Part shown: one piece after another, positions 59,977 through 64,000 of the stretch
Position numbering within the stretch: position 1 is the stretch's first letter
Layout: every line of letters begins with the position of its first letter
Source: Acidobacteriota bacterium
Lineage (GTDB): Bacteria; Acidobacteriota; Blastocatellia; UBA7656
Length of the DNA: 64,000 nucleotides
Direction: 5' to 3'
NCBI GenBank assembly: GCA_016201275.1
Contig: JACQDB010000038.1
Span: forward strand, 1 to 64,000
The notes under the pieces: model-generated
The model's database searches: none
The model's input: the letters and a program-made list of their open reading frames with translations, nothing else
Told to the model about the DNA's origin: nothing
Translations under genes and position numbers: made by a program

Positions 59977-62352
59977 TCATCGTGCCGTTGCCGCTTCGTA
60001 AGGTTGGTCTTTGCGGCGCAGGAAAATAAAATAGTTCACGGTGAAACACATCAAGGCGAAGCCCGAAAGAAAGACAAAACCCAAGGTGTATGAGCCTGTC
60101 TGTCCACGAATCACGCCTAACACCAGCGGTGGGAAAAAGCCGCCGAGACCGCCCGCCGCGCCTACTAATCCGGTGATCGTGCCGGTCTCTTTCGGGAAGT
60201 ATTGCGGCACTAATTTAAACACCGCGCCGTTGCCAGCACCTAGCATAGCCGCGCATCCCAAAGCCCCTGCGGTAAAAATAATGATGTTTGAAGAAGTCAA
60301 TCCAAGCGCCAAAATCGCTATGCCCGCAAGCACAAAAAATAACACCAACGCGCCGCCATATCTGTCCGCCAAGCCACCGCCAAACGGACGCATCGCCGTT
60401 GCCACAATGACGAAGCCCGCGACACGCGCTCCCGCATCGGTCAGCGTCAAAGCGAAAATATCTTTAAGCAGCGTTGGCAAATAAATGCTCAAGGCAACAA
60501 AACCACCAAAGGTCAGAAAATAGAATAACGACAATACCCAAGCAATCGGCTCACGTTTCAAGATAGCGAAATACTCGCCAATTTTTTTGGGTTGCGTTTT
60601 CACAGATGCGTTGCGAGCGAACATCAAAAACACTACGCCGAATAAACCCGCCGCCGCGCCAAAGACCCAGAACGGCACACGCCAATTTCCTGTTGCCGCA
60701 ACCAAAGCGGGTGCGCCGAAAACGGCTATGGATTGCCCTATGTTGCCCATGCCGTAAACCCCAAGCGCGATGCCTTGTTGATGCGCCGGAAACCATTTCG
60801 AGGTGAACGACACGCCTACCGAAAAACTCATTCCGGCAAAGCCTAATAAAAAACCCCAAGCAATGAGCGAGGTGTAAGAGTTGCTGAAACTCGCGCCGAT
60901 TGCCGGAAGCAAGCAGAAGCACAACAGCAAGCCGAAGACTTTGCGCCCACCGAATTTGTCCGCCAAAATCCCTAAAGGCAAACGCCCAAGTGAGCCTAAC
61001 AGCACAGGCACGGCTATCAGCATGGAAGTTTGCCAAGGCGTCAGGTTGTACATCTCGCGAAAGCGCGGAGCCAGCGACCCCATCAATCCCCAGACCGCAA
61101 AGGTGACGGCGAAACCTATGGTTGAAAGCGCCAGAGCGCGATAAGCCTGCGCGTCCCACACCAGGTGTTCTTCGGGCGTTTCATAAGAATGCAGCGCCAG
61201 ACTCTCCGATAAATAGGGGTCGTGTTTGGGCAGCATCGCAGCTTTTTTTAGTCCATCGAGGAACGCCCAAACAAAGAGCGCCGCGAAGCCAATTACCAAA
61301 GCAAGGTCAACATAATTAGGCAACGCGGAAAGCCCTAGAGCAGGAAAAATCATGACGTACAAATCCACCCAATGACCTATCAAGACAATCGCGCAAGCCC
61401 ACAACAACAAGCTTTCGCTGCGTTTGGCGCGGCGCGAAATCAACAGCGCGAACGGCAACAGCCAATTCAAAAACAGGTTGAGCAGGAAGAGAAATTTCCA
61501 GCCGCCGGTCTGTGTTCGGCGTAGGTAATAGACCGTCTCTTCGGGAATGTTGGCGTAATAGATCAACAGGTATTGCGACAACCAGAGGTATGCCCAAAAG
61601 GTCGAAAAGGCAAAGACCAGTTTGCCCAAGTTGTGCAAGTGGTCTTCATTGAGTTGTGGCAACCAACCGCGACGACGCAGCAAGATGGCGACAATGGTAA
61701 TTGCCGCTACGCCACTTAGAAACAATCCTGAAAAACAGTAGAAGGCATAAATCGTGCTGTAAAATTCCGGCTCCAGCGACATCAGCCAATCGAAGCTTGC
61801 CAACGAAAAAGTCACCGCGAACACCGCTAGAAAAATCGCTGATAACTTCTTACTTCGCGTTGCGTGTTCAGGCGCTCCGTCTTCGTCTTGTTGACGCGAT
61901 TCTCTGACCATGAACCAGGCGAAGAAAACCCATAGAGCCAGCGCCACAAACATTCGCGCAAAGAAAAACGGCGTGTTCAAAAATGCCAGTTTCATTTGCA
62001 AACCGGCGCTTGCTCCTGCCCTTGAAAGATGCGTCCATTCATAAAGCGTGTGCCTGCCAAAAAAAATGGTCAGCATAGCGATTGCGCCAAACGGCAGGTA
62101 ATTCATCAAGGCTTCGGGGATGCGACGAATGACCGCGCTCCATCCGGCATTTGACACATGATAGATACTTAAAAAGACCATCGCGCCAAGCGCCAGCGTC
62201 AAAAAATAAAAAACGTTGAGCAAGACTCCCGCCCACAAGCGCGAGCTGTTTGCAAGAATGCCTATGAGCAAACCCGTTGCGCCAACCCCTAGCCCGATGG
62301 TCAAAATTTTTCGTTCGCGCTCTGCTATAAAAGAATTGTTTGGCATCATCAT
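59977..62352 (-). CDS. Fusion of complex III subunit ActF and NarK-type nitrate/nitrite transporter
   Basis: A continuous 791-residue frame with two full-length membrane modules. Residues 1-388 match ActF, the second quinone-site PsrC-like subunit of alternative complex III (VLLNVFYFLTLALGAMVFLS, LASFDWLMSLEPEFYSTIYA, LLIYYANIPEETVYY, and the typical C-terminus PKHDPYLSESLALH). A 15-residue linker follows. Residues 404-791 are a 12-helix MFS protein of the NarK family: FAVTFAVWGLMG, Arg457 in LGSLGRLPLG, nitrate signatures GVYGMGNIGQS and MLGAGNGAVFKLVPQYFP, and Arg655 in ATAMRPFGGGLADR. The two arginines align with the nitrate ligands of NarK. Start MMMP follows CGGAGTAATC. No stop, frameshift or second start separates the halves. 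Confidence 0.92.
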   Translation of the reverse strand: MMMPNNSFIAERERKILTIGLGVGATGLLIGILANSSRLWAGVLLNVFYFLTLALGAMVFLSIYHVSNAGWSAVIRRIPEALMNYLPFGAIAMLTIFFGRHTLYEWTHLSRAGASAGLQMKLAFLNTPFFFARMFVALALWVFFAWFMVRESRQQDEDGAPEHATRSKKLSAIFLAVFAVTFSLASFDWLMSLEPEFYSTIYAFYCFSGLFLSGVAAITIVAILLRRRGWLPQLNEDHLHNLGKLVFAFSTFWAYLWLSQYLLIYYANIPEETVYYLRRTQTGGWKFLFLLNLFLNWLLPFALLISRRAKRSESLLLWACAIVLIGHWVDLYVMIFPALGLSALPNYVDLALVIGFAALFVWAFLDGLKKAAMLPKHDPYLSESLALHSYETPEEHLVWDAQAYRALALSTIGFAVTFAVWGLMGSLAPRFREMYNLTPWQTSMLIAVPVLLGSLGRLPLGILADKFGGRKVFGLLLCFCLLPAIGASFSNSYTSLIAWGFLLGFAGMSFSVGVSFTSKWFPAHQQGIALGVYGMGNIGQSIAVFGAPALVAATGNWRVPFWVFGAAAGLFGVVFLMFARNASVKTQPKKIGEYFAILKREPIAWVLSLFYFLTFGGFVALSIYLPTLLKDIFALTLTDAGARVAGFVIVATAMRPFGGGLADRYGGALVLFFVLAGIAILALGLTSSNIIIFTAGALGCAAMLGAGNGAVFKLVPQYFPKETGTITGLVGAAGGLGGFFPPLVLGVIRGQTGSYTLGFVFLSGFALMCFTVNYFIFLRRKDQPYEAATAR

Positions 62353-62369
62353 GATTACTCCGAGAAAAG

Positions 62370-62658
62370 GTTTGGAGTACCGCCTGAAGGTTTTTTGAAA
62401 AATAATCCGACAATAGCCCGCGAAGCGGGTGCCAGCATAAAGCCCCGTTCGTCAGAGCGGGGTAGGCGGTGGTTGCAGGACTTCCGAGCCTGCGAAGCGG
62501 GCGATAGCCGATGGTCTATCGCCCGCTTCGCAGGCTCGGATATCTGGTTCGTTCGCTACCCAAGGTTCGCTATGCTTCACCTTGGGCTAAATGCTTACGC
62601 CCACCTTCGTGGGCTTGTCCGATTCATTCTTCAAAGATCATCAGGCGGTACTCCAAAC
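62370..62658. mobile_element. 289-bp hairpin-rich element with 18-bp inverted ends
   Basis: GTTTGGAGTACCGCCTGA at 62370-62387 is exactly complementary to 62641-62658. Inside is a perfect stem of about 25 bp (starting TCCGAGCCTGCGAAGCGGGC, roughly 62486-62543) and smaller hairpins (CCCGCGAAGCGGG, GCCCCGTTCGTCAGAGCGGGG, CCCACCTTCGTGGG). No coding sequence. It separates actE from the ActF-NarK gene within one operon. Confidence 0.85.
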
Positions 62659-62673
62659 TTCTATTTCAAACTT

Positions 62674-63234
62674 TTACTTCCCCTGCAATTGGCGTATGTA
62701 AAGAATCACTTTCCAACGGTCATCAACGCCGACTTGCGCGGCGTGCGCGGGCATATCTTTGCGCCCCAAGGTAATCGCATGAAACATCGCGCCGTCTGGC
62801 ACATTCTTTGAAGTTTCGGTTTTGTATGAAGGCGGGTTCGGATACTTGGGAATAATCGCGCCGTCACCGCCGCCACTCGCGCCGTGACACACCGCGCAAT
62901 AATTTGCAAAGACGTACTGCCCACGCGCCAGATTTTCCACCGTCGCCGCAAAGGGGTTTTTCAACTCGCGTCCGGCTCTTGCCGCTTCGTTTTCACTCGC
63001 GCCGTAATGAAAAGGTTGATAGCCTCTAGCGATAGTTCCGGCAATGGGCATCTGCCCGGTCATGTGATTCGGCAACACCGGATTTGTGGTCTGCGAAAGA
63101 TAAGCAGGCGAATATTGCATCTGCGTAGTCCACTCGCGATTTCGCACCGTCACCTCACGACCCAATAAATAAATGCCGCCGCATACGACTAGCGGCAAAA
63201 GCATGACTGCCAACCATGTGAGTGTTTTTCTCAT
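62674..63234 (-). CDS. actE: Alternative complex III cytochrome c subunit ActE
   Basis: A 186-residue membrane-anchored monohaem cytochrome. One N-terminal hydrophobic segment (TLTWLAVMLLPLVVCGGIYL) anchors it outside the membrane. The haem motif is CAVCH (in ANYCAVCHGASGGGDGA); a distal Met in RKDMPAHAAQV is the probable axial ligand. NPVLPNHMTGQMPIAGTIAR is characteristic of ActE. Its start overlaps the end of actD by 4 bases (ATGA). Confidence 0.93.
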   Translation of the reverse strand: MRKTLTWLAVMLLPLVVCGGIYLLGREVTVRNREWTTQMQYSPAYLSQTTNPVLPNHMTGQMPIAGTIARGYQPFHYGASENEAARAGRELKNPFAATVENLARGQYVFANYCAVCHGASGGGDGAIIPKYPNPPSYKTETSKNVPDGAMFHAITLGRKDMPAHAAQVGVDDRWKVILYIRQLQGK

Positions 63235-63773
63235 ACGAATTGATCTCCTTCAATGACGCGAATCGCCCCGTGTTTATTGAATATTTTTAACGCTTTTCGC
63301 ATATCGAATGCGGCATCGGCTTGTTTCAAGACCAACACGAAACGGTCGTCGGTGACGCGATCAAAGGTCAATTTTTTGCTGAACAACCACAGACGATTTC
63401 TAACTAACAAAACGCCAATGGCTATCAAACCCGAAAACAAAACCATCAACTCGAAGGTCACGGGGATGAATAGCGGAAACGAATTGAAGGGCTTGCCGCC
63501 GACGTTCAGGGGCCAATCGTAAGCCGAAGTCCAGACCTGCAAACCCAAGCCAAAGGTCAGCCCTACGGCTCCGGCTATGAAGGCTATCCAAGTCAATTTT
63601 GACCGCTTCAAACCGATGGCTTGATCCAAGCCGTGAACCGGAAAAGGGGTGAAGGCGTCGTGAATCTCAAAGCCCGATTCTCGCGCTTCAATCGCTGCCT
63701 CTTTCAAATCCTCTTGACGTTTGAAATAGACAGCGATGTAGCGCACGTTGATGGTATTTTTAACGGCGAGCAT
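63231..63773 (-). CDS. actD: Alternative complex III subunit ActD (DUF3341)
   Basis: A 180-residue protein with an N-terminal soluble segment ([40 protein letters not shown]), two membrane helices ([20 protein letters not shown] and [20 protein letters not shown]) and a C-terminal soluble tail, the layout of DUF3341/ActD. It bridges the membrane and peripheral parts of the complex. Start overlaps the end of actC by 14 bases. Confidence 0.93.
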
Positions 63774-64000
63774 AATGCACTACCCCCTTGATTTCACTCA
63801 TCGAGATGACCGGAAAGAGCCGCAGAAACAGCAGGAAAAAAGTGAAGAACATTCCAAAGCTGCCAAACATAATCGTCACCTCGGTAAGCGTCGGCGTGTA
63901 ACTCGCCCAACTTGAGGGCAGAAAATCGCGGTGCAGCGAGGTGACGATAATAACGAAACGCTCGAACCACATCCCTACGTTGACCAGAATCGAAAGCACG
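63760..64000 (-). CDS. actC: Alternative complex III subunit ActC (NrfD-like), C-terminal end
   Basis: The last 80 residues of a PsrC/NrfD-family quinone-binding subunit, cut by the window edge. [20 protein letters not shown] then [18 protein letters not shown] is the conserved ActC stretch near the final helices; [20 protein letters not shown] is the last helix. The rest of the operon (actB, actA) should lie beyond the window. Confidence 0.92.

Follow-up and report, generated by a model that had tools for sequence, protein, structure and literature searches.

A clade-specific fusion of the alternative complex III subunit ActF to a NarK-type nitrate transporter in nar-linked operons of Blastocatellia

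Why should a subunit of a respiratory complex be encoded in one piece with a nitrate transporter? The question is raised by a gene in the 64,000-nucleotide stretch of Blastocatellia DNA analysed here (the window; contig JACQDB010000038.1 from position 1, genome G000), which a preliminary description, made from the sequence without database searches, had read as an uninterrupted 791-codon frame joining a complete ActF to a complete NarK. It had proposed that such a covalent link between alternative complex III (ACIII) and an anion transporter was undescribed, and had cited a nearby YwiC-like gene as support for a nitrate connection. The analysis below upholds a real, complete and apparently undescribed link, but not the argument from YwiC.

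The actF::narK reading frame

Positions 59977-62352 form a single frame with an ATG start and zero internal stops, as described, on the minus strand, which the description had left unstated (Table 1). The ActF half is complete over residues 1-388: residues 17-388 match the solved ActF of ACIII up to the last residues of both chains (6f0k_F, 2e-62; 6btm_F, 2e-60), with other matches to 6lod_F and 8k9e_F, and the C-terminal DPYLxESL tail is kept. No Pfam model matched this half, and therefore its identity rests on the PDB match, the fold and the neighbouring genes. It also keeps 11 of the 13 residues of the proton half-channel proposed from the ACIII structure, as well as Tyr284 (PMC5928083).

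The second half proved, by alignment and fold, to be the complete 12-helix NarK with nitrate signatures and two substrate arginines that had been claimed. Residues 393-723 match E. coli NarK and NarU structures in a sequence search of the PDB, R457 and R655 align with the substrate arginines of NarU/NarK, and both arginines and the glycine-rich nitrate signatures are invariant across six fusions. PF07690 matches with 166 bits, and TIGR00886 (NarK) spans residues 405-738, over the full model, with 226.6 bits against a curated cut-off of 311.7. As the transporter of the Paracoccus nirBD/nas locus (209.7 bits) and that of the Thermus nar operon (170.6 bits) fall below it too, this cut-off omits known kinds of transporter.

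An AlphaFold2 model built from 46 sequences had a mean pLDDT of 90.9, with both halves well folded and residues 389-397 below 50. Foldseek placed the halves with ActF chains (TMt 0.87-0.92) and NarK chains (TMt 0.74-0.80; 4u4w 0.76), respectively. The pTM of 0.59 leaves the mutual orientation of the halves undefined, which counts against reading them as a fixed assembly. A hydropathy scan found 10 + 12 helices and put the linker on the side with more positive charge, and the loops between the 10 hydrophobic segments of the ActF half contain more Lys/Arg on the side of both termini. In the Rhodothermus marinus ACIII structure ActF is peripheral, with both termini cytoplasmic (PMC5928083). Hence the end of ActF and the start of NarK lie on the same side of the membrane, and the topologies of the two halves are compatible, ActF ending and NarK beginning in the cytoplasm.

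Table 1. Features of the fusion gene and its operon (window coordinates unless stated)
Feature	Coordinates	Strand	Remarks
actF::narK fusion gene, 791 aa	59977..62352	-	stop codon 59977-59979
NarK half, residues 401-791	59980..61152	-	12 TM helices; predicted NasA/NarK1-type; R457 + R655
linker, residues 389-400	61153..61188	-	predicted disordered, cytoplasmic
ActF half, residues 1-388	61189..62352	-	PDB match, fold; 10 predicted TM helices
spacer actE / actF::narK	62353..62673	.	dispersed palindromic repeat
actE, monohaem cytochrome c subunit of ACIII	62674..63234	-	one CxxCH
actD	63231..63773	-	PF11821, 184 bits
actC, 3' end	63760..64000	-	continues to contig position 65274
actB, actA, narI, narJ, narH, narG, diheme cytochrome c, Rrf2	outside window, to contig 78227	-	

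Conservation and origin of the junction

The fusion is open, full length and stop-free in six of the seven genomes of the family, the five other copies being 69-84% identical to that in the window. A query spanning the junction (residues 330-480) was positive in 7 of 162 genomes of the class, namely these six and G402, from another family, and none of the 396 genomes drawn from the phylum held a further ActF::NarK junction. One more fusion, L050 (VFZK01000234.1), came from a scan of 84,980 species; as the seeds were two short, conserved peptides from ActF, distant cases may have escaped it. A search of plasmids for full fusions returned no record covering 80% of the query. The junction thus recurs in seven other copies, 65-84% identical (five from the family, G402 and the L050 contig), and relatives such as G002, G003 and G402 carry both the operon and the fusion, contrary to what the preliminary description had named as grounds for doubt. 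L050 itself is a full fusion on an 8.6-kb contig binned as Acidimicrobiia, with an ActC 83% identical to that of the window; a misbinned Blastocatellia contig and lateral transfer both fit.

It is scarcely credible that the gene is an artefact, whether a chimeric contig, a frameshift, or a NarK translated separately from an internal start. All the genomes are draft assemblies or MAGs, and the linkers of G004 and G006 contain an in-frame ATG after a purine-rich stretch. However, the same junction lies on different contigs of independent genomes at 69-84% identity, and these fusion-bearing relatives rule out misassembly and frameshift. The linker has no conserved in-frame ATG or GTG among the relatives, and those of G002, G003 and G005 have neither codon, ruling out an internal NarK start as the general case. 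Between the ESL motif of ActF and the ALxLST motif of NarK lie 22-24 residues in the copies measured, with in-frame indels only.

Two genomes of a second family bear on how the junction arose and what it is worth. G402 has an in-frame ATG AAG CGC at the start position of the nearest free NarK (L040), as a joining of two neighbouring genes would leave it. In G482, a draft genome with an N-run in actF (L143, G482:C28), TGA replaces the tryptophan codon of the linker and a large deletion removes most of the NarK half, whereas ActF reads on to its usual tail. The NarK half therefore appears to have decayed with ActF kept, and hence the tether seems useful but dispensable.

In the ActF tree, the G402/G482 pair branches separately from the family's fusions, and as it is sister to unfused Pyrinomonadaceae ActF, this tree needs two changes. 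In the NarK tree, the eight fused halves form one clade (SH-aLRT 92), sister to the NarK of the G049 nar operon (100). These trees fit either one fusion event followed by losses or a later transfer of the fused gene; it is less likely that NarK of one lineage was joined twice independently. The fused halves group with NasA-type importers, rather than with E. coli NarK or the Thermus nar-operon transporter, and are therefore predicted from sequence to be NasA/NarK1-like nitrate importers, not antiporters like that of E. coli. NasA and NarK1 are thought to be nitrate/proton symporters, although sequence predicts transport mode unreliably (PMC5217062). Candidates considered as references for Paracoccus NarK1/NarK2 proved to be assimilatory transporters adjoining nirB. 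The separate narK beside actF in the f5 genomes was rejected as a direct precursor, being of the Thermus-type clade (62% to the Thermus nar-operon transporter), whereas the fused half is NasA-like.

NarK has been joined to other partners. Eight Acidobacteriota genomes (G125, G374, G208, G256, G171, G409, G215 and G107; L125-L132) encode an N-terminal NarK, 52-56% identical to the window's half, followed by a membrane cytochrome-like domain of about 350 residues with CxxC pairs; most of these genes adjoin those for a NasC-like molybdoenzyme and a DmsB-type FeS protein, and the G000 counterparts are separate genes (L044). The NarK halves of this second kind form their own clade (100). NarK has hence become fused to membrane subunits of respiration on at least two occasions, an argument for tethering being beneficial. 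Long frames that resembled ActF fusions were set aside: of the NarK frames of 672-880 aa in other Acidobacteriota, these eight carry a different C-terminal membrane domain, that of G096 is a long stretch without stops preceding an unfused NarK, and in L060 no NarK accompanies the long ActF frame. A 948-aa frame (L111, G007:C116) has an N half like E. coli NarK and a C half like NasA, resembling the Paracoccus NarK1-NarK2 fusion with the order of the halves reversed.

The nar-linked ACIII cluster and its possible electron acceptors

The fusion is the last gene of a row on one strand, Rrf2 - diheme cytochrome c - narGHJI - actABCDE - actF::narK, of which narGHJI and the cytochrome lie beyond the window and were thus missed by the preliminary description. 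As these genes share the row, ACIII is probably nitrate-linked and the transporter probably serves the adjacent, cytoplasmic nitrate reductase. The actA-actE genes encoded with the fusion (L031) have PF11821, NrfD, Fer4 and cytochrome matches, ActA has five CxxCH motifs, and the diheme cytochrome c is C-terminally anchored. A PAS-LuxR regulator diverges from the cluster. The order of regulator, cytochrome, nar, act and fusion is common to G002, G003 and G402.

All four Nar subunits exceed their curated cut-offs (NarG TIGR01580, 1544 bits; NarH TIGR01660, 640; NarJ TIGR00684, 75; NarI TIGR00351, 129). NarG has no Tat-type leader at its start and resembles E. coli NarG along its whole length (1301 bits for the G002 copy), and therefore NarG should be cytoplasmic and nitrate must be imported. 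NarI keeps its four haem histidines, with Arg at the position of E. coli Lys86; with the haem ligands and a basic residue kept, NarGHI could itself oxidise menaquinol without ACIII, which counts against a respirasome.

The YwiC-like gene lies convergently on the opposite strand and is missing beside the locus in G002, and was accordingly rejected as part of the system. The spacer repeat, which lies outside the fusion and splits the operon before it in G000, counts against a functional tie to the complex, and might affect expression of the fusion. This palindromic repeat (62370-62658) has 77 matches in the genome, 44-nt terminal inverted repeats (62370-62413 / 62615-62658) and a 25-bp perfect hairpin (62483-62540); the G002 spacer is of similar length but is not homologous to it.

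Within the family, all six genomes with the fusion have narG (one of the six genes being cut by a contig end), and the seventh, G001, lacks both. Among the act loci compared, 19 clusters have nar and no coxA in the locus DNA examined, whereas 15 without nar have an adjoining coxA; in the operon, nar thus stands where the usual acceptor of ACIII would be. Clusters of ACIII with nar are widespread in both Acidobacteriota and Planctomycetota. Most of them lack the fusion, which counts against a tether being integral to such clusters: some have a separate narK between narI and actA (L069, L070, L077, L083, L086, L102), or after actF in another frame (L059, L065, L072).

The preliminary description had proposed looking for nar and nirK; narGHJI was found in the cluster itself, but the family has no nirK above the cut-off, no nosZ, and no credible nirS, only short low-scoring pieces. 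Denitrification downstream of Nar was therefore rejected as the family's outlet for ACIII. Within the family, nrfA occurs only in G000, G002 and G003, which likely reduce nitrate to ammonium. In G004, which is 100% complete and has the nar-ACIII cluster, none of nirK, nirS, nosZ or nrfA was found, leaving the ACIII cytochrome c with few known N-oxide partners except Nar. However, the fusion genomes also hold haem-copper oxidases as possible electron acceptors of ACIII, which counts against a respirasome. A second, conventional ACIII operon in G000 (L043, G000:C17) is followed by haem-copper oxidase genes.

The proposed role of the tether and comparison with known systems

The reading we favour, and consider reasonably probable, is that a clade-specific ActF::NarK fusion tethers nitrate supply to an ACIII working with NarGHI, as a nitrate respirasome. 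That the two proteins are tethered is evident at the level of the encoded sequence. ACIII genes often adjoin those of their acceptor, and as nar and a NarC-like cytochrome stand here, ACIII probably feeds electrons to NarGHI or is bound with it in a supercomplex. The gene order and known precedents lead us to infer this association or supercomplex, and proton coupling, if there is any, is likewise inferred. ACIII-oxidase supercomplexes are known (PMC5928083), in Streptomyces, Nar1 requires a complex III supercomplex and is purified together with it, with a theoretical 4 versus 2 H+ (PMC7931247), the diheme cytochrome NarC at the head of the Thermus nar operon binds NarI and is a proposed electron bridge (PMC7694296), and NarK2 binds the denitrification complex of Pseudomonas (PMC5658584). 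Under such an arrangement, ACIII would oxidise menaquinol and pump protons, with electrons passing from ActA/ActE to the diheme cytochrome and on to NarGHI, or, where a genome offers them, to other acceptors in the periplasm. NarK would be anchored by ActF, which is peripheral and leaves its C-terminus free in the cytoplasm, such that each ACIII would have one transporter delivering nitrate close to the NarG site in the cytoplasm. Stoichiometry, location in the membrane and co-assembly would be set by the tether, which, judging by G482, would be advantageous rather than essential.

A rival possibility, which we judge somewhat unlikely, is that adjacent actF and narK were joined neutrally by loss of a stop codon, with the halves working independently and only their expression equalised; ACIII would then feed oxidases or other reductases, and NarK would feed NarG. 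The disordered linker, the low pTM, the decay of NarK without loss of ActF in G482, and the in-frame ATG AAG CGC of G402 at the start site of L040 all speak for this, and the f5 genomes, with a separate narK directly after actF, demonstrate that adjacency arises easily. Against it, the single frame has persisted through at least five genera, with linkers of 22-24 residues and identities down to 65-69%, and with no conserved internal start, and the second, unrelated NarK-cytochrome-like fusion suggests that tethering has been repeatedly favoured.

Stronger couplings than a tether are harder to credit. An ACIII-NarGHI respirasome in which menaquinol oxidation by ACIII adds proton translocation before nitrate, and whose linked NarK imports nitrate with the complex's own protons, would be the first redox-driven respiratory complex to contain its own nitrate transporter, and is improbable. 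It is very improbable that protons from the ActF/ActC pump directly drive the nitrate/proton symport of the attached NarK. Retention of most proton-path residues (11 of 13, and Tyr284) and the position of the fused NarK among NasA/NarK1-type importers, predicted nitrate/proton symporters, are consistent with direct driving, but pumping through ActF is a structural proposal (PMC5928083), sequence is no guide to transport mode and NasA is without a known proton-carrying residue (PMC5217062), and the linker is flexible.

If the favoured tethering to a nitrate-linked ACIII is correct, building a substrate transporter into a respiratory complex would be a novel principle of organisation, and should there be an ACIII-Nar respirasome, these bacteria would gain more energy from nitrate respiration than NarGHI alone could yield. 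The covalent transporter assigns ACIII to nitrate respiration, points to ActF as the site of contact, and offers a testable handle on the role of so far unexplained nitrate-linked ACIII clusters. As the preliminary description had supposed, no account of an ACIII-transporter link was found in the open-licence literature, nor any paper there on a transporter fused to ActF or ACIII; nar beside act genes is already in print, and the covalent transporter is new as far as searched.

The locus can be compared with several known systems. It has the same six subunits, actA-F in order, as the ACIII of Rhodothermus marinus (6F0K) and Flavobacterium johnsoniae (6BTM), sharing an ActA with five CxxCH motifs, an ActB with CISM and FeS parts, two NrfD-like subunits, ActD, ActE and the fold of ActF (TMt 0.89-0.92). 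It differs in that ActF carries a covalent MFS transporter, and in that narGHJI and a diheme cytochrome, rather than a haem-copper oxidase, share the operon. In Planctomycetota MAGs, 13 instances of nar with six act-like genes were reported, in which actD was named but ACIII went unrecognised, and an NrfAH-like (nitrite) reductase role was proposed (PMC10732223). There, too, nar lies upstream of a pentahaem cytochrome, a molybdopterin-like/FeS protein, NrfD, ActD, a cytochrome and quinone-binding subunit 2, but no transporter fusion was reported. One of those MAGs, OFTM39 (L082), carries an act cluster with nar genes in our data; the 'novel NrfD-type complex' by nar in the OFTM MAGs (L082, L096) is ACIII by the matches obtained here. 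The Paracoccus NarK1-NarK2 fusion likewise places a linker-joined, covalent NarK within nitrate respiration, but joins two transporters together, with no subunit of a redox complex (PMC5217062). The Thermus narCGHJIK(T) operon is similarly headed by a diheme cytochrome c before narGHJI and ends with a transporter, yet has no ACIII, and its transporters are free (PMC7694296). Finally, Streptomyces Nar1 with the bcc-aa3 supercomplex also combines a nitrate reductase with a complex III equivalent, but does so through a conventional cytochrome bcc and separate genes, with no link to a transporter (PMC7931247).
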